Shown here: piece by piece, positions 7,290-19,761 of the stretch
How positions within the stretch are numbered: the first letter of the stretch is position 1
How the letters are laid out: each line of letters begins with the position of its first letter
Source of the DNA: Catenisphaera adipataccumulans
GTDB lineage: Bacteria; Bacillota_I; Bacilli_A; Erysipelotrichales; Erysipelotrichaceae
Length of the DNA: 64,000 nt
NCBI RefSeq assembly: GCF_014202755.1
Contig: NZ_JACHHK010000001.1
Coordinates: 62,001 to 126,000 of the forward strand
Direction of reading: 5' to 3'
Position numbers and translations under genes: made by a program
Notes under the pieces: model-generated
Database searches by the model: none
Seen by the model: the letters and a program-made list of their open reading frames with translations, nothing else
What the model was told of the DNA's origin: nothing

Positions 7290-8003
7290 ATGAAATTATT
7301 TGCGAGCGACTTCGACGGCACGCTCTACCGTCATAACGAAATCACAGCGGCCGATCAGCAGGCCATCGCCGCTTTTCAGAAACATCACACCTTTGCGGTC
7401 AGTACCGGCCGATCCCTGACCGGTATCGATTTTGCGGTACAGGGCGTCATCCGTTTTGACTACTATATCTTAGCCAGCGGTGCCTTGATCCTGAATGCGG
7501 AAAAAGACCCCATCTTCATGCGCACCATCGACCGGCCGCTGATCAAACAAATCTATCAACGCTGGAACGATCTGCCGATGGTATTCCATGCCGAAGATAC
7601 TGTCTTTACGCTGGATGCCCCGCTGCCGATGCAGAAGCACGTCGACCATCTAAGCCAGCTGCCGGACCAGATCTATGGGCTCTCCATCGCTGCACCGAAT
7701 GAGGCAGCAGCCAAACAGATCGTTCACTTTATCAATGAACAATATGGCGAGGTCATGCATGCTTTTCAGAACCGTACCCACATTGATGCGGCCCCGGCCG
7801 GCTGCTCCAAAGGCAACGCCATCCGCATCCTGAAACAGGCCGGATTCTCTTCCTGCGAAGCCATCGGTGATTCCTATAATGATATCCCGATGTTAGCGGC
7901 AGCCGATGTCGCATATACATTTCCGTATGCGCCTGCCTTTGTACAGAAAAACGCAGACCGGATCGTTGAATCCGTGGCCTGCGCCCTTTCGTATTCATTA
8001 TAA
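7290..8003 (+). CDS. HAD-superfamily phosphatase (Cof-like)
   Basis: 237 residues. Motif I DFDGTLYR is at residues 7-14, STGRSLTG is motif II, and GDSYNDIPML near the C-terminus is motif III/IV, as in class IIB HAD phosphatases. A start at 7227 is possible in frame, but homology begins at MKLFASDFDG. No ribosome binding site is visible; a -10 element sits 6 nt upstream. It converges on the nitrogenase-like operon and its last codons overlap the end of that operon's final gene by 6 nt. Substrate unknown. Confidence 0.88.
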   Translation: MKLFASDFDGTLYRHNEITAADQQAIAAFQKHHTFAVSTGRSLTGIDFAVQGVIRFDYYILASGALILNAEKDPIFMRTIDRPLIKQIYQRWNDLPMVFHAEDTVFTLDAPLPMQKHVDHLSQLPDQIYGLSIAAPNEAAAKQIVHFINEQYGEVMHAFQNRTHIDAAPAGCSKGNAIRILKQAGFSSCEAIGDSYNDIPMLAAADVAYTFPYAPAFVQKNADRIVESVACALSYSL

Positions 8004-9098
8004 TTGATTGGCTTCCAGCCAGGCATCGCCGGCTTCTTCCACTAAATCCGGAATCTCGTTGAGATACATCCGGCCGGAGTAAGCCACCCGCGGCAGTGCA
8101 ATGAACCGTGCCTGTGGCGGACAGATCGGCCGGAGCAGCGGATCCGCGATCACGATCTCTGCATCAGCAGCAGCCTTCGCAATTTCTTCTTCAAACTCCG
8201 TCTGCACCATATTCCCGACGTGTTGTTCCGATGCACTGACGACACGGAACGAATCCCAGCCGCGCTGTTCCAACACCCATGCCAAAGTGTGCATCTGGAC
8301 CGGTTCCCCGATCAGCACGATACGATGCCCCGGTTTCCGCGAATGCAGGAAGCCTTTTTTGTGTTCGATCAGCTCGGACATAGCTTTGGACCCGGCAGTG
8401 CCGATCGGCACACCGACACAATATGGGATCCCGAACCTTTCTTCCATCTCTTCAGCTGCCGCCAGTCCGTCTGCGGAAACCACCACATTGACCGCCGCCT
8501 GGCCCGCATCGGTGATTTCCTGCCAGATACAACCCATCGACCAGCACGAAACCATTCCATGGGCTGCGCCGAAACGGCGCAGATGAACGGCGCTGCCGTA
8601 ATGATCCAGCGGCGTCACACCGAGCAGATTGATGCCGGTATGATGATCCGATGGTTTTACGAAACGTTTCACCAACATCTGATATGCCTGAGAAGCGCCA
8701 TGAATGTACGAGTTCATCCCGCTGGTCTTCAATCCGAAGGCTGGTATGCCGGTGATGGTTTCAATTTCCCGGGCGATCCCAATAAAATCTGTGCCCATGA
8801 CCGTAGCGATCGGCGATCCATATAAGGCAATAAAACGCGGCTCCAGTTCCTCTGCTGCTTCAACGACTTGATCGATCAGCTTTTGATCGTTGCCGAGGAT
8901 CGCATCGTATTCGGTCAAGGCAGAAATAAACATCAGGCTCGGGATCTGATCCCAGCGCGGTTCATCATGGGTCGCATACGTCGAGTTGCATCCGGAGGCA
9001 TCATGCACGATGACCAGACCGCCTAGTTCATATAAGGCGGAATTGGCGCCTGCCCAGTCGGCTGCCTCATTGACTGTTTTCTTGGTTGCCTTTTTCAT
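7998..9098 (-). CDS. Nitrogenase-like component 1 subunit, D-type, set 1
   Basis: 366 residues (oxidoreductase/nitrogenase component 1 family); last gene of the operon. The N-terminal VIVHDASGC matches the HGPxGC P-cluster cysteine region of NifD, giving Cys37. The position of NifD Cys154 reads LYGSPIATVMGTD, so Ser95 replaces that cysteine while the following GTD is kept. The family forms an alpha/beta heterodimer binding Fe-S clusters and receives electrons from a NifH-like ATPase. ATG overlaps the upstream stop (GGATGA). It is paralogous to the gene at 15618. Much shorter than NifD; not a nitrogen-fixing nitrogenase. Substrate unknown. Confidence 0.85.
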   Translation of the reverse strand: MKKATKKTVNEAADWAGANSALYELGGLVIVHDASGCNSTYATHDEPRWDQIPSLMFISALTEYDAILGNDQKLIDQVVEAAEELEPRFIALYGSPIATVMGTDFIGIAREIETITGIPAFGLKTSGMNSYIHGASQAYQMLVKRFVKPSDHHTGINLLGVTPLDHYGSAVHLRRFGAAHGMVSCWSMGCIWQEITDAGQAAVNVVVSADGLAAAEEMEERFGIPYCVGVPIGTAGSKAMSELIEHKKGFLHSRKPGHRIVLIGEPVQMHTLAWVLEQRGWDSFRVVSASEQHVGNMVQTEFEEEIAKAAADAEIVIADPLLRPICPPQARFIALPRVAYSGRMYLNEIPDLVEEAGDAWLEANQL

Positions 9099-10375
9099 CC
9101 GAAACATCCTTTCGCTTTGATTTCGATCATCGCCGGATCTTTTTCATAAAACAGCGCATCCTGCATCTGTTCGCACAATTTACGGATGCCAGTATAGCCG
9201 TATAAGCCGTCATTGGCGACCATGTTCACAAAATGCCGCGTGCCGGAATAATACGTCGCTTTCTGTCCGATTGCCAGACAATCCGGATCCAGATCGTGCC
9301 ATAAACGGCAGCGGTAATGCACCGCCGCCCGCAGTTCCATCTCCGGAGCCAGCACGCGTAAGCGCTGCAGGGCATCCTGTTCTCCTGGCAGAACGGCATC
9401 GCTGTAGACCGTGGTCACATTCATCCCATGTTCTAAAAGCAGACAGGCCAGTTCGAGCGGCCGCGGGGTCGCACTGTAATCGATCTGAACGGCCCGGCCG
9501 TGTAAAAGCCGTGCTGTTTTACGCAGGGCTTTTTCTGCCAGTTCTTTCTGACGGGAAAAATCTTTCCGCTGAATACCTAACGTATCCGCCAGCCGGTCCA
9601 GATCGGCTTCGATTTCCTTCATCGACCAGGTATAAGGTATATAGATCGGGATCTGGCCATTGCGTGCCTGCAGATCGCGGGCGGCTTCTTTGGCGACCGG
9701 CATATTATAGATGAGATATTTTGCGTGCGCCATTTCTTTGTATTCGGCATATGTTTCACACAGCGGCAGATCGTAAATTTTCTGATCGCTCAAAAGACTG
9801 TAGATCTCACTGTCCGGATCCAGCGCAAAGTAATTGCCGATGATATCCACTTGATCCGGGTCTTTTTCCACATTCCCTAACGGCGCATACCACTGGCGTG
9901 CCGTCACTTCTTCATAATGCAGCTTGGACTGCCGCATGGTGCAGTTCATATAGTTTTCGATCCAGTCCACCTGCGGATACCGTTTTCGCAGATGCGTCAT
10001 AACATACGGCAGATCGATCGCGGTAAAATGATGCACACAGGAGGTAAAGACCATGACACAGGGCGGCAGTGTTTCCATGGCATCCAGAATATCACAGACC
10101 CCTTCATAGAACAGCTTTTCCATATCGCCGTCCACCGCATCTTCTTCTTTGACCGTGACCATCGCAAACCGATCAAGCAGCCGGTCTTCCGCCGCTGATA
10201 AAACGACCCCGCGCAGGCAGCCTTCCGGGCAGACAAAGATTTCTAACAAGCCCGGTACAAGCATCGGCGTATGCGCAATGGTCCAGGTGCCGCGGGTCTG
10301 CGGGGTAAATTCCAGGCTGGATTCAAACGGAGCGTCGGATGTGACCCGACCGATCGGCAGTACAGGTTCAGTCAT
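9095..10375 (-). CDS. Nitrogenase-like component 1 subunit, K-type, set 1
   Basis: 426 residues, nitrogenase component 1 family. Cys49 and Cys53 lie in [12 protein letters not shown], and Cys113 lies in [14 protein letters not shown], which aligns with the CPxxxIGDD loop holding NifD Cys154. Cys53 and Cys113 are conserved in the set 2 paralogue (Cys67 and Cys125). With Cys37 of the D-type partner they could ligate an Fe-S cluster at the subunit interface, as in BchNB. The start at the second ATG of a close pair is favoured because GGAG lies 7 nt upstream. It overlaps the H gene by 8 nt and the D gene by 4 nt. Confidence 0.85.
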
Positions 10376-11123
10376 GGGCATTCTCCAATAACTCTTCAGC
10401 CAGCCGGCGGTACATGTTGGCCGCATAACTGTCCGGGAACGCTTCGATCACGGTCTGATGACGGTCATCGGCTTCCTGCACCGTTTTGGAGAAATCCAGG
10501 ATCCCGACGACCGAAGAATGAATATCTTTGCACAATTTGGCAATGCGTTCTTCTTCCTGATTGACCATACGCCGATTGACAATAACTCCGCCTAATGTCG
10601 CATAGCCGCGTTTCTGGAACATCTCCACCGCCAGGGCAATATTCATGGCTGCATGAATGGACATCGCCTCACCGGAAGTCAGGATATAGACCTGATCGGC
10701 ATAGCCTTCACGGATCGGCATCGCAAAACCGCCGCAGACAACATCGCCCAGCACATCAAACAACACCACATCCGGGTGATAGACTTCATAGGCTTTCTTA
10801 TCATCAAGAAACTCCATCGCCGCAATGATCCCGCGGCCGGCACAGCCAAGTCCCGGAGTCGGGCCGCCGGCTTCCACCAGCAGCACATCCCGATAGCCGC
10901 GTGTCACGACTTCCTCCAATGTAGTCTCTTGATTTTTTTCACGCAGCAGATCCAATACGGCTGCTTTTTCCGGTTCGCGCCGTAAATTGATCGTACTGTC
11001 TGCTTTGGGATCGCAGCCGATCTGCATGACCGTATAGCCTTTTTCTGCTAAAGCGGCGGAAACATTCGAAACCGTTGTCGATTTTCCGATGCCGCCTTTG
11101 CCATAAAATGCGAGCTTGATCAT
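10368..11123 (-). CDS. NifH-like iron protein (ATP-dependent reductase), set 1
   Basis: 251 residues of the NifH/BchL/CfbC family. The P-loop GKGGIGKST is at 8-16 and switch [11 protein letters not shown] at 35-44. The two cluster-ligating cysteines are Cys94 (GLGCAGRG) and Cys130 ([14 protein letters not shown]), the positions that bridge a [4Fe-4S] cluster in a homodimer. It should transfer electrons to the K/D pair encoded directly downstream, with ATP hydrolysis. ATG shares one base with the hypE stop (TGATG). Shorter than NifH (about 290 residues), lacking its C-terminal extension. Confidence 0.93.
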
Positions 11124-12124
11124 CAGCAGATCCTCGGAAGCAGTTCGCCGCCCGGACGCGGCAAAATGGTTTCACTGCCGATCGCTGTTTTCATCGTGAC
11201 CACACCTTTTCGATCGGTCACCGTACCGATGACGGCCGCATTCTGCGAATACGGACAATCATGCAGGATCTCGATGACTTGATCCGCCTGATCCTGCGGA
11301 ACAAACATCACCAGGCGGCCTTCACAAGCCAAATAGAGCGGCTCCAGCCCGAGCATGCCGCAGACGCCGCGGACCGCCGGATCGACCGGGATGGCTTCCT
11401 GATTCAAACGGATGCCGATACCAGATTGATGGGCGATCTCATACAACACCGTACCGACACCGCCGCGGGTGGCATCCCGGATCACATGTACATCCGGAAC
11501 CGCATTCAGGACCCGTTCCACCGTTTTTCCCAATGGTGCACAATCGCTGGTAACATCTGCCTGGATCTTGAAATCGTTGCGTGCCAGCAAGATCGTGCAG
11601 CCATGCCGGCCGACATCTCCAGTCACGATCACCGCATCGCCTGGTTTTGCGTTGGCGCCGGCGGGATGGACGCCCTCCAACAATTCACCGACGCCGGCCG
11701 TCGTAATGAAGACACCGTCCACCTGTCCTTTTCCGGCGACTTTTGTATCACCGGCGACAAAACGGACACCCGCTTCCTGGGCTGTTTTTCCCATGGCGGC
11801 CGCCAGCTGTTCCAACGTATCCATGGAAAAGCCTTCCTCGATCACAAAGGAACAAGTCAGATACAACGGGCGGGCACCCATACAGGCTAAATCATTGACC
11901 GTGCCGCAGACTGAAAGCTTGCCGATGTTGCCGCCGGGAAAAATGGCCGGCGAGACAATAAAACCATCGGTCGACATCGCTATTCTGCCGGCCGGCAGAT
12001 CCAATACCGCCGCATCATCGGCTGTCATATCCGGATTATCAAGATTTTTTTTAAAAATGCGGTCGATCAGATCCGCAGTCTGTGCACCGCCGGCGCCATG
12101 CGCCAGCGTGATCGTTTCACTCAT
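11123..12124 (-). CDS. hypE: Hydrogenase maturation protein HypE
   Basis: 333 residues, PurM-like ATPase fold. HypE accepts a carbamoyl group from HypF on its C-terminal cysteine and dehydrates it to a thiocyanate, giving cyanide ligands for iron. The protein ends in PRIC, the required terminus. AHGAGG (8-13), STDGF and VAGDTKV are the ATP and metal-binding motifs. It overlaps hypD by 4 nt and the set 1 H gene by 1 nt. All functional residues appear intact, so the pathway is probably active rather than a relic. Confidence 0.97.
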
Positions 12125-13164
12125 TCTTGCGCCTCCTTACCATATGTATAAAATGCGGAGCAAGCCCCTTCATTGGAGACCATGCAGGCTCCCACCGGAT
12201 GTTCCGGCGTGCATACGCGGTCAAACAGCGGACAGTCAAACGGCGTACAGTCGCCTTTCAGCACATCGCCGCATCTGCAGGCCGGGTTGGCATGGCCGCT
12301 GATATTTTCCAAATTATATTTTTTCCGCGCATCAAAATCGGCATATTCGGATCGCAGTGCGAGCCCGGATCTTGGGATCACGCCCAGTCCGCGCCATTCA
12401 CTGTCGATCGGTTCCATGATCTCATGGATCAGTTTCCGTCCCGGCCGCGATCCTTCATCGGTCACGACCCGCGGATACGCATTGACAAAAAACGGTTTTC
12501 CTTCGGCACATTTTTTTGTGATGACCGTCAAAGCCGTAATAATTTCCGGTCCGGTAAAGCCGGTGATCACGCCGCTGATGCCGTCGGCACACAACTGTCG
12601 ATAAATCGCTGTTCCCGTGATCGCGGATACATGTCCGGGATACAAAAAGGCATCGGCACTGTCCCGCAGCGCATAATATGCTTGATCCATGGTTTTATTG
12701 GCCGTTAAGATCGAAAAATTGCGGACCGCTTCGTTTTTTGCATTGCGTACGGCCATGCAGGAAGCCGGCGTCGTTGTTTCAAATCCCACTGATAAAAAGA
12801 CAACATCCTGATCCGGATTGGCCTTCGCAAATTCAAGCGCATCCAACGGGCTGTACACCATTTTGATCACAGCGCCTTCTTTCCGGGCATCGGCCAGCGA
12901 AGCTTCACTGCCCGGCACCCGGATCAAATCACCGAATGTGCAGATGACCACACCGCGCCGCGCCAAAGCGACCGCCTGATCGATATAACCGACCGGGGTC
13001 ACACAAACCGGACAGCCCGGTCCGGAGATCAGCCGGATCTTTTCCGGCAGCAGGCTGCGGATCCCCTGACGGAAGATTTCATGCGTATGCGTTCCGCACA
13101 CTTCCATGATCCGCAGCGGGCGTCCGTCATAGGCTTTCAGCTGTTCAACAATTTCCGGATTCAC
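12121..13164 (-). CDS. hypD: Hydrogenase maturation protein HypD
   Basis: 347 residues. Scaffold, with HypC, on which Fe(CN)2CO is assembled. Cys23 in the CGTHT motif and Cys51/Cys54 in GPGCPVC match the catalytic cysteines of the family. The C-terminal cysteine-rich region (CRCGDVLKG, CPLF, HPVGACMVS, EGAC) holds the [4Fe-4S] cluster. Start and stop overlap hypC and hypE by 4 nt each. Confidence 0.97.
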   Translation of the reverse strand: MNPEIVEQLKAYDGRPLRIMEVCGTHTHEIFRQGIRSLLPEKIRLISGPGCPVCVTPVGYIDQAVALARRGVVICTFGDLIRVPGSEASLADARKEGAVIKMVYSPLDALEFAKANPDQDVVFLSVGFETTTPASCMAVRNAKNEAVRNFSILTANKTMDQAYYALRDSADAFLYPGHVSAITGTAIYRQLCADGISGVITGFTGPEIITALTVITKKCAEGKPFFVNAYPRVVTDEGSRPGRKLIHEIMEPIDSEWRGLGVIPRSGLALRSEYADFDARKKYNLENISGHANPACRCGDVLKGDCTPFDCPLFDRVCTPEHPVGACMVSNEGACSAFYTYGKEAQE

Positions 13165-13370
13165 TGGTATTCCTCCAGGATGGATTCACTTTCTGCCTCA
13201 TCGGTACCGTTGATCTTCGCAATGGCTGCGCCGGCATGGACCATCACATAATCGCCGACTTCCAGATCCTCGACCAGTTCAGCCGAGACCTCACGCACGG
13301 CACCGGTCGCATCGACCAAAGCCTTGCCGTTTTTGATTTTCTTTACTTTTGCGGGTAATCCTACACACAT
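13161..13370 (-). CDS. hypC: Hydrogenase maturation chaperone HypC
   Basis: 69 residues. It begins MCVGLPAKV; after Met removal the N-terminal cysteine (Cys2) binds the Fe(CN)2CO unit and carries it to its target. A short beta-barrel follows (VREVSAELVEDLEVGDYVMVHAGAAI shows the family pattern). A longer in-frame start at 13436 is rejected because the invariant MCxGxP must be N-terminal and AAGGAG lies just upstream. The only HypC in the window; it must deliver to a partner other than an adjacent hydrogenase. Confidence 0.95.
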   Translation of the reverse strand: MCVGLPAKVKKIKNGKALVDATGAVREVSAELVEDLEVGDYVMVHAGAAIAKINGTDEAESESILEEYQ

Positions 13371-13371
13371 A

Positions 13372-15630
13372 TTATTCTCCTTTCTCCGGGTTTGCCGCCG
13401 CATAATATGCCTGCCCCAGCGCGATCCCGCCGTCATTGGCCGGAATCATCTGATGGGTGTAGACCGCAAATCCGTCTTTTGTCAATTGTTCTTTTAATTG
13501 ATGCAGAAGCACCTGATTCTGCGCACAGCCGCCGCTGATGCAGACCCGTTTCAATGCCGCCGCTTCACGTATCTGCCGGCACATGGCCGCAATGCCCTGT
13601 GCCAGCCAGTGATGAAAAGCCAGAGCCGTATCGGCAGCGGGCTCACCATCCAGATGACGGCGGACCAAAGCCTGAAGCATCTCTTTGACCATCAACTGAT
13701 GATCTTTGATCTTTACCGGCAGCGGATCAGATGGGTGTCCCTGCATGGCCGTGAACTCCAGGACCATGGAGGCTTCCCCTTCGCAGGTGTTGGTCAGACG
13801 CAGTCCTAAGATCGCACTGACCGCATCAAACAGCCGGCCGACGCTGGTCGTCGGGATCGTATGGATGTGCTGTTCGATCATCGTACAAAGCACATCCTGT
13901 GTGCCGGCATCGCATAGATGTAAAGCAGCCGCCTGATCCATAAGCCGGTGCTGATGCAGCAGAGCGACTGCCGGCCGGTAACATTCCACAGCGGCCCGGT
14001 CGCCGCCGGGCAGCACAAAGGGTTCAATGGATCCATAACGGGTATAATTATGTTCATCACACACGAAGAACTCCCCGCCCCAGATCGTTTGATCCGTTCC
14101 GTAGCCGGTGCCGTCCATCGCAATGCCGATCACCTCACCGGACAATTGGTTTTCTGCCATGCACGAAAGCACATGGGCATAGTGGTGCTGGATCTCCACG
14201 ACCGGCAGTCCGAGATCATGCGCCACAAGGCGTGAATTGTACTGCGGATGCAGATCGCAGGCCACGACATCGGGGCGGATCTCCAACAAATCTTCCATAC
14301 GCTGGATGGCCTGCCGTAAGGCTTCCACACTGCGGATATCGCTTAGATCCCCAATATATGGGGAAAGATAAAACAGATCCTTATTGGTGAGACAAAAGGT
14401 ATTCTTCAGTTCGCCGCCGATGCCTAGGATCTTCCGGTCCGTCTGCACCGGCACGGCGGCCGGCAGCGGCGCATAGCCCCGGGACCGGCGGATCATCATC
14501 GGCTTGTCATCAAACCAAGCCATCACGGAATCATCCGCCCGCAGCCGGATCCGGCGGTTGTTGGAAAGGACCAGATCGCAGATCGACATCAGGTTCTCTC
14601 GGACATCCTCGTCGGTCCGGCAGATCGGTGCGCCCTTGGGATTGGCACTGGTCATCACCAGACAATCCGGTGTCTGAAGATCGTCCGGATATTCAAATAA
14701 AAGCATCTGCACCGGTGCGTACGGCAGCATCACTCCGACATACGGATTATCCGGTGCAATGGCGCGGCATAGCTTTCCGTTTGGTTTTTTCTTCAGCAGC
14801 AGGATCGGTTTTTGTGCACCGGTCAGGATCTTTTCCTGCGCCGGACTGACTTCGCATTCTCGGCGGACCACATCCATATTTTTCATCATTACGGCCAGCG
14901 GTTTGAACGGCCGAGTCTTACGCCGGCGCAGCGTCATGACGGTTTCTTGGTTTGTCGCATCACAGCACAGATGGAAGCCGCCGATGCCTTTGACAGCGGC
15001 GATCCGGCCATCGCACAATGCCTGCCGGCAAGTCTTCAACGCCGCATCCCGCCGGATATCGGTGTCCATGATATAAAGCTCCGGACCGCATTCGTTGCAG
15101 CACACGGGCTGGGCATGATACCGCCGGGTTTCTTCATGCGTATATTCGTATTCACATGCCGGACACATTGGAAATTCTTTCATGCTGGTGCGTTCCCGGT
15201 CATACGGCATACCGTCTAAGATCGTCAGCCGCGGCCCGCAGGCCGTACAGTTGATGAACGGATGTAAATAACGACGGTTGGCCGGGCCATACAGTTCTTT
15301 CTGACAAGTCGGACAGATCGCAATATCCGGTGAAACGAAAATATCCCCCTTGACTTTCATACTGTGCAGGATCGTAAAGTCGGTTTCGTCAATGGGCTCG
15401 CACGGCTCGGTTTCAATTTTCAAGATCATCGACCGATCCGGTGCTTTGATTTTTAAATCATGAATGAATGCTTCGTTTTGTGCCGCAGTTCCCTGCACGA
15501 AAATTTCAACATACGGCCCTTTGTTTGTGACCGTCCCCGTGACGGCATTGGCATGGGCGATGCGGACCACGAAAGGCCGGAATCCGACACCCTGGACAAT
15601 GCCGAAGACCCGGATCCTTATTCGTTCCAT
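13372..15630 (-). CDS. hypF: Carbamoyltransferase HypF
   Basis: 752 residues, full length. Order: acylphosphatase domain (1-90, VQGVGFRPFV), paired zinc fingers (CPTC, CTAC, CPAC, CNEC at about 105-180), YrdC-like ATP-binding domain (about 195-380), Kae1/TobZ-like carbamoyl transfer domain (about 390-750, with HHYAH and MDGTGYG). It uses carbamoyl phosphate and ATP to carbamoylate HypE. It overlaps the set 2 D gene by 13 nt and ends 1 nt before hypC. Confidence 0.97.
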   Translation of the reverse strand: MERIRIRVFGIVQGVGFRPFVVRIAHANAVTGTVTNKGPYVEIFVQGTAAQNEAFIHDLKIKAPDRSMILKIETEPCEPIDETDFTILHSMKVKGDIFVSPDIAICPTCQKELYGPANRRYLHPFINCTACGPRLTILDGMPYDRERTSMKEFPMCPACEYEYTHEETRRYHAQPVCCNECGPELYIMDTDIRRDAALKTCRQALCDGRIAAVKGIGGFHLCCDATNQETVMTLRRRKTRPFKPLAVMMKNMDVVRRECEVSPAQEKILTGAQKPILLLKKKPNGKLCRAIAPDNPYVGVMLPYAPVQMLLFEYPDDLQTPDCLVMTSANPKGAPICRTDEDVRENLMSICDLVLSNNRRIRLRADDSVMAWFDDKPMMIRRSRGYAPLPAAVPVQTDRKILGIGGELKNTFCLTNKDLFYLSPYIGDLSDIRSVEALRQAIQRMEDLLEIRPDVVACDLHPQYNSRLVAHDLGLPVVEIQHHYAHVLSCMAENQLSGEVIGIAMDGTGYGTDQTIWGGEFFVCDEHNYTRYGSIEPFVLPGGDRAAVECYRPAVALLHQHRLMDQAAALHLCDAGTQDVLCTMIEQHIHTIPTTSVGRLFDAVSAILGLRLTNTCEGEASMVLEFTAMQGHPSDPLPVKIKDHQLMVKEMLQALVRRHLDGEPAADTALAFHHWLAQGIAAMCRQIREAAALKRVCISGGCAQNQVLLHQLKEQLTKDGFAVYTHQMIPANDGGIALGQAYYAAANPEKGE

Positions 15631-16613
15631 AGCGCCTTTCTCCAGGAAGCCTCGTAGGCTTCGGCTGAATCAGCTTGATGCATCTGTCCGGATACCGCAA
15701 ACTGCGGCAGCGGAATATAGGTGCCGGAAAAATCCGGGATCGCCTGCTGAAACATCGGATCGCCCATGATCACATCGTAGTCCCCGTTTTTGACCAGCTG
15801 GATCCATTCTGTTTCGCCGTCCAGCTGGATGTCGTTTGTTTGTTTATATTCGGCGTCCATCGTAAAGAAGGATGCAACATCACCGGTGCCGATGCAGTCG
15901 CGCACATAATCCGCATAAATTTGTTGATGAACGATCAGGATCCGGCGGTCTTCTTGATGCCGGCAGGTGCCGCGCAGACGGTCATAAGGGATCCCGAAAC
16001 GTTCTTTCAAATAGCGGGCCGTTTCCAGACCGGAAGGTGAAAGCACAAGATTTTGTTTCGTACCGCCGGCCATCGTCCAGTCTTCCCATTGATCAAAGCA
16101 CAAACCATCCCTTTGGCCGGGCAGATCCAGCGGCGTTGCGCCCCACTGGCCGATTTGATCGGTCGGTGCCGCCTGGATCATCGGACGCAGTGCCCGATAA
16201 GCTTTCTGCTGACCGATTTCATAGGTCTCCATGCCGGTCGTATCAATATAGATGCACGGCAGACCGAAGCGCTTTTCACCGATCCGGCACAAGGCCGCAT
16301 AATCCGTAGCGATCACAGAGGGCGCTGGTGTGCCGATCAGCGCAAGAAAATGCGGCTGAAACGAAGTCAGCGCTTTTTCGATTTTATCCAGTAAACGGTC
16401 ATCCCGTCCCAGGATCGCATCCAGATCCCGGAGGCCGGCAGAAAAGACCGCACTTTTTTGTGTATACCAACGCGGTTCATCAAAGCCGCACGTGTTGCCG
16501 GTGCAGCCGCCCGCATCACAGATGACGATCATGCCGCCTAACCCGAATAAAACGGAACAGGCGCCGGAGATATCCGGTGCAAACGGCGACAAATAACGAA
16601 ACAATCCTTTCAT
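15618..16613 (-). CDS. Nitrogenase-like component 1 subunit, D-type, set 2
   Basis: 331 residues, paralogue of the D-type gene at 7998. The shared signature is GGMIVICDAGGC with Cys37 at the same residue number as in set 1, then FDEPRW. Extra cysteines occur at 32 and 42. The position of NifD Cys154 is Thr95 (LIGTPAPSVIATD), where set 1 has Ser95, so loss of that ligand is a shared property. It overlaps the K-type stop by 4 nt and runs into hypF by 13 nt, which ties the nitrogenase-like genes physically to the hyp genes. Confidence 0.85.
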   Translation of the reverse strand: MKGLFRYLSPFAPDISGACSVLFGLGGMIVICDAGGCTGNTCGFDEPRWYTQKSAVFSAGLRDLDAILGRDDRLLDKIEKALTSFQPHFLALIGTPAPSVIATDYAALCRIGEKRFGLPCIYIDTTGMETYEIGQQKAYRALRPMIQAAPTDQIGQWGATPLDLPGQRDGLCFDQWEDWTMAGGTKQNLVLSPSGLETARYLKERFGIPYDRLRGTCRHQEDRRILIVHQQIYADYVRDCIGTGDVASFFTMDAEYKQTNDIQLDGETEWIQLVKNGDYDVIMGDPMFQQAIPDFSGTYIPLPQFAVSGQMHQADSAEAYEASWRKALWNE

Positions 16614-17866
16614 GCGGACACCTCCTTGATCCGGTCTGCCAGCTTGATGAAGCCATCATAACCAAAGGGCTGTTTTTCACTGTTCCATTCGACGCATGGT
16701 ACGTTTGGATACCATTGACCGGCATCCTTGCCGATCGTCAGATCCGGATGGGCATCCGCCTGAAAATTGATCATCGAAGGCGAGATACCCGTGTAAACCT
16801 TGGTTTCCGGACTCAGTTTCGCCAGCCGTTTGATGGTCGGAAGGTTCCGGGAGATGACATTGGAAAAGATCTCCGGAATGACATATCCTTGTTCCGCCAG
16901 GAAGGCTGCCAGTTCAAATGGATCAGCGTTGCACATTTCCCCGATCACGATGCGGCGGCCGCCCGGCAGCTCGGCTTGTTTCCGTTTGCCCTTCGCATAC
17001 CACTCATCATCATCGATCGTAATTCCGACCGCTTTGGCAAGCAGCTGATACACATGATGGATCCGATCCGGCGCATAGACCCGCGGTATTTCCAAATAGG
17101 GCATGCCCAGCCGCTGATAAAGCTGTTCGCCGGCATACGCTGCTTCCGGATCAAGGATCAGATTGAAATTGGCTTCGCCCATCTTCTGATAGGCATCCAA
17201 GGTCTTCATTTCGGCAGCCTGCCGGATCTTAGTCAGGCCGGCTTTCTGAAGCAGCGGAAAAAGATCGCTTTCCGGATCGATCGGGCTGAACCAGCCCAAT
17301 AGGTTGACCGCATGCGGGTCGACCGGCTTTCGTTTTAATAAAGAGAAAACCGTGTCATGGACCTGCACCATCGGCGGTTTGCGGCCTTCCCGTTCCAGCG
17401 CGTACATCGTGCTGGGCACAAGGATCAACCCGGTCTCCTGTGCTGTCTTTTCACAGATGCTTTCCAGATCGGTTGCGAGCAGAGCGTCGACACAGGTGAT
17501 GCATAAGATCACAACTTTCGGATGACAGAGTTCATCGATTTCCTTCACTGCCTGCGTGATCTTGCGCAGATGACGGCTTGTGACCAAGTCGGTTTCATTC
17601 ATCAATAAATAAAACATCCGATCCCGATAGTGTTCTTCAGCTGAGAGAATGGTCGAATTGCGGCCGCAGCTGGCCGGCGCGATCAGTAACATCACCGATT
17701 CGGGGATCGTCAAAGCAGCCCGTTTCACACCGAAGCCGATGGCGCCCGGTGAATTATAGGCCAGCGTTGCCGGCGAACTGTAGATCAAATGCGCGGACGG
17801 ATCGTATTCGGCCGGAATTTTTTTGCCGGCAGCCAAGTCGGCCGCAGTGGTATAAAAGGCGTTCAT
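16610..17866 (-). CDS. Nitrogenase-like component 1 subunit, K-type, set 2
   Basis: 418 residues, nitrogenase component 1 family. Cys67 ([10 protein letters not shown]) and Cys125 ([15 protein letters not shown]) correspond to Cys53 and Cys113 of the set 1 protein; the equivalent of set 1 Cys49 is absent. The C-terminal half has Rossmann-like strands ([20 protein letters not shown]). An ATG overlapping the H-gene stop (CGATGA) is chosen over one 15 nt upstream. It probably forms a heterodimer with the product of the next gene. Confidence 0.85.
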
Positions 17867-18615
17867 CGGTTGTCCTCCCACAAGGTATCCGCCAGATCGC
17901 AGAACGTTTTCGTCAGCGGATCCTCCGGCATCGCTTCCACGACAGTTTTACCCTGTTCCTCGCACACATTGATCGCATCGCTGCGGCCGATATCCGCCAC
18001 GATCGGTAAGCCGCGTTCTTTGGCAAAGGCGCGGACTTTTTCTTCTTCATTCGGTATGTTGCGGCGATTGAAAAGGATGCCGCGGACCGTCGCATAACTG
18101 CGGTTTTTGAAATTTTCCACGGCTTTCCAAATATTATTGGCCGCATAAAGTGCCATTTTCTCTCCGGAGGTGACGATCAGGATCTCATCGGCATAGCCTT
18201 CGCGGATCGGTGCCGCAAACCCGCCGCAGACCACATCACCCAATACGTCAAACAAGACCACATCCGGCTGTTCCCGTTCGAACAGCTCTAAGTCTTCCAG
18301 CAGCGCAAAGGTCGCCATGATGCCGCGGCCGGCACAGCCTAGGCCCGGCGTCGGTCCGCCGGTTTCCAGACAACGGATGCCGTTGTAGCCGATTTCCATG
18401 ATATCCTCCAATGTCGGATCCTCATCATGCGCGCGCAGATAATCCATGACCGGTGTAATGGCTTTGCCGCCTAATAAAGAAAATGTACTGTCGGCTTTGG
18501 GATCGCAGCCGATCTGAATCACTTTTTTGCCCTGCCGGCTGAATGCCGCGGCCAGGTGACTGGTCATAGTTGATTTACCGATGCCGCCTTTTCCATAAAT
18601 CGCAATCTTAAGCAT
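17863..18615 (-). CDS. NifH-like iron protein (ATP-dependent reductase), set 2
   Basis: 250 residues, NifH/BchL/CfbC family. P-loop GKGGIGKST at 8-16, [10 protein letters not shown] at 35-44, Cys94 and Cys130 in GLGCAGRG and [10 protein letters not shown]: the same numbering as set 1. The start at [11 protein letters not shown] is supported by GGAGG 4 nt upstream; an ATG at 18645 would lie inside the attenuator hairpin. It is the first gene after the terminator/antiterminator element, so its expression and that of the downstream genes may depend on antitermination. Confidence 0.93.
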
Positions 18616-18619
18616 AATT

Positions 18620-18681
18620 CCTCCAAAAAAAGACACTCCTTCCAAGTGAAAAGAGTGTCATTGCCAACTTCCTACTTGGAA
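18620..18681 (-). promoter_or_regulatory. Terminator/antiterminator element inside the metallocluster operon
   Basis: On the minus strand a 12-bp hairpin (arms at 18648-18659 and 18632-18643, tetraloop ACTT, two G-T pairs) is followed by seven T, a strong intrinsic terminator. Upstream, TTCCAAGT (18674-18681) is exactly complementary to ACTTGGAA (18640-18647), which includes the terminator loop and part of its 3' arm. The two structures exclude each other. It lies in the 78-nt gap between the radical SAM gene and the set 2 H gene. The ligand or protein that decides is not identifiable. Confidence 0.75.
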
Positions 18682-18693
18682 AATTCCTTGTCG

Positions 18694-19761
18694 TCAGATG
18701 TTCTTTTTGTCACCGCGGTCGGTGACGACTTGATAACCAATGGAAAGCATGCGCCGTTCCAGGCAGCCCCGGCACTGCGCACTTTCTTCCCCGGTACAAA
18801 TTTTATTATCATAAAGCTGATAGTCCTTCCGCACTTCGGTCGGTGATAAGTTCGGCATCACCACGTTGGCGCCGGACAGCACACCTTTTTCCCGTCCCTT
18901 CGGATCCATCGTTCCCAATGCCGTCGTAGCCGGCAGCAGGACATCCGGACAAATCAGCCGGATCAGCGCCAGCAGGTAACAGGTCAGATCGACCGAGCCG
19001 GCCGGAAAGTCTTTCAGCGGTGTCTGGCCATGCGGAATGAATGGGCCGATGCCGCACATCTCCGGTTGAAAGGTTTCAATAAATTTCAGATCTTCTGCCA
19101 GATGACGTGCTGTCTGATACGGTGCACCGATCATCATGCCGATACCGACCGCATATCCGATGTCCCGCAGCGTACGGATACAGTCCATTCGATGCGCAAA
19201 CGACATCGTTGAAGGATGCAGGAGCCGGTAATGATCCGCGTCGGCGGTTTCATGCCGCAGCAGATAGCGCTCCGCTCCAGCTTCATACAAGCGCCGATAG
19301 CTTTCGGCGCTGCGTTCGCCTACGGATAAAGTGATCGCACAATCCGGATAGCGCTCATGGATCTCTGATACAATGGCACACAGCCGGTCGTCCGTAAAAT
19401 ATGCATCTTCCCCGCCTTGCAGGACAAAAGTCCGAAAGCCCAGCGCATGACCGGTTTTGCAGGAGGAAAGGATCTCTTCCTGGCTCAAGCGGTAGCGGCG
19501 CACGTGCGGGTTGTCTTTACGGATGCCGCAGTAATAGCAGTTGTTGCGGCAGATGTTGGTAAACTCGATCAAGCCGCGCACATAAATGTCCCGTCCGTAT
19601 ATCGAACGGGTGATCTGAACGGCTTTATGCCGGATCCAGTCATCGGTCTCCGGGGTGCGGTTTTCGATCAAATATTCATAATCTTCAATGGCCAGCGCAT
19701 GTTCTTTTTCCAGTTTCTGGATGCGCTGGATGATTCCTTCTCTGCTTGTGATATTTTTCAC
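18694..19761 (-). CDS. hydE: HydE-type radical SAM protein
   Basis: 355 residues. The radical SAM motif is Cys71, Cys75 and Cys78 in FTNICRNNCYYCGIR, the HydE form. The C-terminal Cys322-x7-Cys330-x2-Cys333 matches the second cluster site of HydE in number and spacing. HydE acts on the iron-CO/CN-cysteine synthon made by HydG during [FeFe]-hydrogenase H-cluster assembly. No hydF, hydG or hydrogenase is in the window, and the gene leads a nitrogenase-like/hyp operon, so its substrate may differ. The start is GTG at 19761, with a -10 box 6 nt upstream. Confidence 0.88.
   Translation of the reverse strand: MKNITSREGIIQRIQKLEKEHALAIEDYEYLIENRTPETDDWIRHKAVQITRSIYGRDIYVRGLIEFTNICRNNCYYCGIRKDNPHVRRYRLSQEEILSSCKTGHALGFRTFVLQGGEDAYFTDDRLCAIVSEIHERYPDCAITLSVGERSAESYRRLYEAGAERYLLRHETADADHYRLLHPSTMSFAHRMDCIRTLRDIGYAVGIGMMIGAPYQTARHLAEDLKFIETFQPEMCGIGPFIPHGQTPLKDFPAGSVDLTCYLLALIRLICPDVLLPATTALGTMDPKGREKGVLSGANVVMPNLSPTEVRKDYQLYDNKICTGEESAQCRGCLERRMLSIGYQVVTDRGDKKNI

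Follow-up and report, generated by a model that had tools for sequence, protein, structure and literature searches.

To our knowledge, in every described [FeFe]-hydrogenase the CO and CN ligands of the H-cluster come from tyrosine via HydG. In the maturation of [NiFe]-hydrogenases, the product of the Hyp proteins is Fe(CN)2CO; in the nitrogenase system, NifH serves both NifDK and NifEN. A locus partly like all three systems lies on the minus strand of a 64,000-nucleotide stretch of the Catenisphaera adipataccumulans genome (contig NZ_JACHHK010000001.1, positions 62,001 to 126,000), hereafter the window. The order of its genes is hydE, H2-K2-D2 (15618-18615), hypF-hypC-hypD-hypE (11123-15630), and H1-K1-D1 (7998-11123). 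Thus, hypFCDE is flanked by two complete sets, set 2 and set 1, each consisting of a NifH-like ATP-dependent reductase (H) and two subunits resembling nitrogenase component 1 (K and D). We consider it likely that this locus encodes an alternative way of making the [2Fe] subcluster of [FeFe]-hydrogenases, one that does not depend on HydG.

HydG converts tyrosine to CO and CN, and the resulting Fe(CN)(CO)2-cysteine synthon is delivered to HydE (PMC12752695); all five CO/CN ligands are tyrosine-derived (PMC3105041). Five of eight acetogenic clostridia reportedly have no identifiable hydG, which was left unexplained (PMC9431212). A literature search for maturation without HydG that involves Hyp or nitrogenase-like proteins, in which subscription journals and preprints were thinly covered, returned no account of it. 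The locus is a member of none of the three systems, HydEFG, HypCDEF, and NifH-NifEN, since tests for HydG, for a [NiFe] client, and for the cofactor ligands of nitrogenase all gave negative results.

HydE, HydF, and HydA in genomes without HydG

The hydE gene (18694..19761) encodes a radical SAM protein that matches the NCBIfam HydE equivalog TIGR03956 with 563 bits against a cut-off of 255; the CxxxCxxC motif is present in 37/37 locus homologues. Conserved neighbours were counted in 80 loci, which are the best 80 of 523 K2-relative stretches from 84,980 species genomes, plus loci in relatives; locus counts therefore describe the closest K2 relatives and not a random sample. A protein of the TM1266 family, whose NCBI name describes it as a putative regulator for iron-only ([FeFe]) hydrogenase systems, is encoded in 58 of the 80 loci, and HydF in 24. 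Given these neighbours and the known role of HydG as the supplier of HydE, the locus genomes were tested for HydG.

The window genome encodes HydF on a contig other than that of the locus (G000:C2, 562 bits) and one HydA (P0001; PF02906, 244 bits), which keeps all the H-cluster motifs, TSCCPAW, GPCAAKK, and EGMACPGGC. HydG was not found in this genome, which is 97.5% complete: HydE itself scores highest with the HydG model, at 71 bits against a cut-off of 312, and full-length HydG proteins reach 670-960 bits with this model. The first 15 locus genomes have HydA in 15/15 cases and HydG in 0/15, and over all locus-bearing genomes tested the counts are 27/27 for HydA, 27/27 for HydF, and 0/27 for HydG. 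The genomes in which HydG was not found include the finished ones of Ruminococcus bicirculans 80/3 and Mogibacterium pumilum; absence of HydG carries less weight in draft metagenome-assembled genomes (MAGs) than in finished ones. Like canonical HydEFG systems, the locus genomes have HydE and HydF equivalogs, HydA, and a TM1266-type regulator nearby; unlike them, they have no HydG and carry hypFCDE together with two nitrogenase-like complexes.

The relationship between HydG and set 1 was analyzed in 341 evenly sampled Clostridia genomes. HydG exceeded its cut-off in 215 of them, HydA is present in 315, K2 was detected in 10 (E < 1e-150) and K1 in 13 (E < 1e-130), and all 13 genomes with K1 are HydA-positive. 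Among the HydA-positive genomes, HydG is present in 0/13 with set 1 versus 204/302 without it (p 8e-7, an indicative value that is not corrected for phylogeny, the genomes being related). Of the 13 K1 genomes, ten have their top match to the HydG model at the HydE level, and three (G348, G416, and G524) have it at the ThiH level, under the cut-off. HydG-less HydA-positive Clostridia have HydF in 13/13 cases with K1 versus 11/49 tested without it; four of these 11 lie at contig ends, one showing a partial HydG-like radical SAM gene. A typical HydG-less genome is thus also without HydF, whereas the locus carriers keep HydE and HydF yet have no HydG. Such complementarity would be expected of a locus that replaces HydG. 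The remaining 38 of the 49 tested HydA-positive, HydG-less, set-1-less genomes have no HydF, and their HydA-like proteins may mature otherwise or lack the [2Fe] site.

Hyp genes and their client

All four Hyp proteins of the window exceed the NCBIfam cut-offs. The hypF gene (13372..15630; TIGR00143, 782 bits against 466) encodes the carbamoyltransferase of the first cyanide-synthesis step, hypC (13161..13376; PF01455, 77 bits) encodes a chaperone with the Met-Cys start motif, hypD (12121..13164; TIGR00075, 400 bits against 193) encodes the scaffold for Fe(CN)2CO assembly with all key cysteines kept, and the product of hypE (11123..12124; TIGR02124, 420 bits against 252) makes a protein-bound thiocyanate on its C-terminal cysteine, in the motif PRIC. 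Among the locus homologues, PRIC is kept in 66/66 HypE sequences, GPGCPVC in 71/71 HypD sequences, and the Met-Cys start in 61/62 HypC sequences. With the catalytic residues of HypC, HypD, and HypE kept, the cyanide chemistry of these proteins should work, as judged from their sequences.

The locus shares HypF, HypC, HypD, and HypE, with intact catalytic cysteines, with the HypABCDEF system of [NiFe]-hydrogenases. It differs from this system in its client and in its HypD. No match to the [NiFe] large subunit (PF00374) was found in the window genome or in the related genomes G053 (Absicoccus) and G058, and none to HypA (TIGR00100) in the window genome or G053. By contrast, nearly all relatives with HypD but without the sets carry both the [NiFe] large subunit and HypA. 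The identity of the window HypD with its counterparts at other two-set loci in the family is 62-70%, compared with 40-44% for [NiFe]-type HypDs; by this measure, the locus HypD is a distinct, separate lineage. Exactly one HypD was found in each of the 20 set-2 (K2) genomes tested. A role in [NiFe]-hydrogenase maturation was rejected, since neither a client nor HypA was found in the window genome.

Two nitrogenase-like sets

Set 2 consists of H2 (17863..18615, with ATG at 18615), K2 (16610..17881), and D2 (15618..16613); set 1 consists of H1 (10368..11123), K1 (9095..10381, with an open reading frame (ORF) starting at 10426 and a probable start at about 10381), and D1 (7998..9107). Both reductases are of the NifH/CfbC type, with about 300-320 bits, and fall under the nifH, CfbC, BchL, and BchX equivalog cut-offs. 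H1 reaches 318 bits with TIGR01287, and H2 reaches 299 bits with TIGR01287 and 306 bits with NF033200. The equivalog level was not reached for nitrogenase (nifD/K/E/N/H; nifE at most 52 bits versus 505, nifH 318 versus 394), nor for CfbCD, DPOR, and COR (CfbC 307 versus 402, BchL 215 versus 345, BchX 178 versus 331). The P-loop lysines are kept in both H1 and H2, and cluster cysteines 94 and 130, whose identical numbering in the two reductases was already pointed out in the first-pass annotation, proved invariant in 51 H1 and 77 H2 sequences (C104 and C140 of the over-long H2 ORF correspond to C94 and C130 counted from ATG).

The Pfam family Oxidored_nitro (PF00148) is matched by D1 (101 bits), K2 (100 bits), and D2 (47 bits); K1 matches no Pfam family. 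In its AlphaFold model (predicted local distance difference test, pLDDT, 91.6), K1 adopts the fold of nitrogenase component 1, with NifEN as the best PDB match (E 2e-15, TM 0.6-0.66), and the K2 model (pLDDT 87.4) has a nitrogenase/NifEN/DPOR fold. Both models match nitrogenase component 1, NifEN, DPOR, and methylthio-alkane reductase. The invariant cysteines are Cys72, Cys127, and Cys130 of K2 (77/77), Cys37 and Cys42 of D2 (61/61), Cys70 and Cys130 of K1 (numbered from the ORF start at 10426), and Cys40 of D1 (53/53). This pattern would fit one Fe-S cluster per heterodimer, located at the subunit interface. Neither a conserved FeMo-co-type ligand pair (Cys275/His442-like) nor the six P-cluster cysteines were found in either set, the residue mapping being based on weak sequence alignments.

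With NifEN/NifDK and NifH, the locus shares the fold of K1 and K2, a NifH-type reductase, paired paralogous complexes, and an apparent sharing of the reductase in some lineages. It differs in that its proteins are about 15% identical to theirs, have no FeMo-co ligand pair and fewer cluster cysteines, and are linked to hydrogenase rather than nif genes. CfbCD, DPOR (BchLNB), and MarHDK (methylthio-alkane reductase) have the same H-K-D architecture, and the NifH and CfbC models are the nearest to the locus reductases. However, a tetrapyrrole (F430/chlorophyll-like) or sulfur-salvage role was rejected, since the reductase scores lie below the equivalog cut-offs and no neighbours of these kinds are conserved.

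The sets are old, true paralogues and not a chance resemblance, because each of the three subunit trees (K, D, and H) separates set 1 from set 2 into single clades, with no exception and with support of 99-100 (H2 100, H1 99). The initial description of two paralogous H-K-D sets is therefore correct, and subunit phylogeny, the check proposed with it, indicated that the sets are separately conserved and travel together. In the 39 fully visible loci, those with at least 9 kb seen on either side of K2, K1 is present in 38, and H2, hypF, hypC, and hypD are present in all 39; in the Clostridia sample, set 1 is present in 10/10 set-2 genomes. One set together with hypCDEF and hydE is not the common state, and the rarer arrangement that does exist is set 1 alone without HypD. 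Near set 2 of E. pyruvativorans (L027), set 1 was not seen, the search covering this neighbourhood and not the whole genome.

The partners of the sets differ: set 2 goes with hypFCDE, being placed directly ahead of hypF, and set 1 with hydE/hydF. The linkage of set 2 with hypFCDE and of set 1 with hydE/hydF/TM1266 is conserved in Bacillota as well as in MAGs labelled as Lentisphaerae, Spirochaetota, and others. The position of set 1 varies; it follows hypE in the window and in Absicoccus, precedes set 2 in Ruminococcus, and is divergent in Mogibacterium. The carriers observed span Erysipelotrichaceae, Lachnospiraceae, and relatives of Ruminococcus and Mogibacterium, and the cluster is common in gut and rumen bacteria. 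No metabolic gene conserved beside the locus was found, and one viral_contigs scan revealed no viral relative.

H2 always adjoins K2, while H1 is absent beside K1 in 14 of the 63 scorable loci, which corresponds to about five changes on the K1 tree (a neighbourhood count). By analogy with NifH, H2 may therefore serve K1D1 too, as one reductase for both sets. In a Clostridia genome (G416, L120:12709-14805), H1 and K1 are fused in a single open frame of 698 aa, which supports the partnership of H1 with K1.

Set 1 occurs without set 2 in three genomes, G275 (L112), G348 (L113), and G434 (L114), all of which have HydA and HydF, with HydG not found. HypD was not found in any of the three genomes. 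The hydE gene lies beside set 1 in G275 and G434 and was not seen in the fetched stretches of G348; TM1266 is encoded at the set-1 loci of G348 and G434, and hydF at that of G434, the HydF of G275 and G348 being encoded away from set 1. Set 1 can thus work without set 2, and its neighbours in these genomes, where HypD was not found, indicate that set 1 is associated with HydE/HydF and set 2 with Hyp. All three loci carry an importer of the Peripla_BP_2/FecCD/ATPase type. An importer of this type also follows more distant H-K-D sets, without hydE, in L115 (G347), L116 (G278), L117 (G354), and L118 (G385); these genomes are mostly HydG-positive, and the system is an uncharacterised nitrogenase-like one plus importer.

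Possible pathway, rival explanations, and transcription

We infer that the locus matures HydA by supplying the Fe-CO-CN substrate of HydE in HydG's stead. HypF and HypE would make cyanide from carbamoyl phosphate, and HypC/HypD would, as in [NiFe] maturation, hold an iron bearing CN and CO, here without a [NiFe]-hydrogenase as recipient. Set 2 (H2K2D2) might use ATP-driven low-potential reduction to modify the Hyp product or supply its CO, for example by generating a second CO or by taking away one CN. Set 1 (H1K1D1) could be a carrier or reductase that brings the product to a form acceptable to HydE, an equivalent of HydG's Fe(CN)(CO)2-cysteine synthon, after which HydE, HydF, and HydA would carry out the final steps as usual. 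The assignment of chemical steps to set 1 or set 2 is speculative.

If the pathway is real, biology would have two routes to the [2Fe] subcluster, the second combining nitrogenase-like complexes with the cyanide machinery known from [NiFe]-hydrogenases, and two uncharacterised nitrogenase-like enzyme families would gain a function. The pathway would also explain the [FeFe]-hydrogenases of such major HydG-less gut and rumen bacteria as Ruminococcus albus, R. bicirculans, Coprococcus comes, and Mogibacterium, and active hydrogenases would be obtainable without tyrosine or HydG.

Several points weigh against HydG replacement. The support for it is genomic and correlative. The mismatch between Fe(CN)2CO, the Hyp product, and Fe(CN)(CO)2, the form used by HydE, requires a ligand exchange that we can only guess at; a reductive exchange step is plausible and, if the guess is right, is the best reason for a nitrogenase-like enzyme here. 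In the set-1-only genomes without HypD, cyanide must have another source. The HydE and HydF proteins of locus genomes mix in the trees with sequences from HydG genomes, among which few HydEs were sampled, and a dedicated HydE/HydF lineage for the locus was accordingly rejected. Finally, seven HydF-positive genomes without HydG have neither set (G489, G366, G540, G464, G305, G515, and G486); these genomes are HydA-positive, and at their loci (L125, L126, and L129-L133) HydF often occurs with HydE and TM1266. They possibly represent another HydG-less route, a divergent HydG, or incomplete assemblies.

The first-pass annotation proposed a split like that of NifEN and NifDK. In the form considered here, one set, that nearest hydE and Hyp, is a scaffold building a new Fe-CO/CN cofactor and the other is an enzyme using it for metabolic reduction. 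The joint presence of ancient paralogous sets in nearly all fully visible loci, the ability of Hyp and HydE to make organometallic iron, and the nitrogenase precedent agree with this idea, and its division of labour between sets with different partners stands. However, neither set is supported as a metabolic enzyme: no metabolic gene is conserved at the locus, a Cys/His pair of the kind that holds FeMo-co is not conserved, lone set 1 still has hydE beside it in L112 and L114 and hydF/TM1266 in L114, and the presence of HydA and HydF without HydG in all 27 genomes would be left unexplained. We therefore regard the scaffold and enzyme split as unlikely. HydA without HydG is the genomic correlate of the locus, by which both sets look like assembly factors, and both probably serve cofactor assembly for HydA.

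A little less probable still is an extension of the HydG-independent route to cross-feeding with an organometallic precursor, in which HypFCDE and set 2 make an Fe-cyanide-carbonyl compound that set 1 hands to HydE, and L112-L114 import this compound or its equivalent via the adjacent transporter. It is very improbable that the sets are two independent reductases with different substrates, such as tetrapyrroles or imported metal chelates, that lie near hydrogenase genes by chance; the distant H-K-D sets with importers and without hydE in HydG genomes (L116-L118) speak for it, but the linkage of each set to its partners across phyla and the exclusion of HydG speak against it. The weakest candidate, that hypFCDE serves a [NiFe]-hydrogenase, HydE and HydF serve HydA normally, and HydG was missed in annotation or assemblies, gains something from the fragmented MAGs among the sampled genomes, but it conflicts with the lack of a [NiFe] large subunit and HypA in the window genome and Absicoccus, with the absence of HydG from finished genomes under a model with which full-length HydG reaches 670-960 bits, and with the separate HypD lineage.

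From H2 through D1, each gene overlaps or abuts its neighbour in an operon-like manner, and the initial assignment of the locus to one transcript holds for this part. It may not extend to hydE: the gap of 78 bases between hydE and H2 contains a terminator-like hairpin (18632..18659, minus strand) with a 12-bp stem followed by U7 (-16.9 kcal/mol, z -5.2). Given this strong hairpin, hydE may have its own transcript or be joined to the rest by read-through past an attenuator. No Rfam RNA matched in the region. The position of the hairpin upstream of the H2 start codon suggests possible attenuation of the ten-gene operon.

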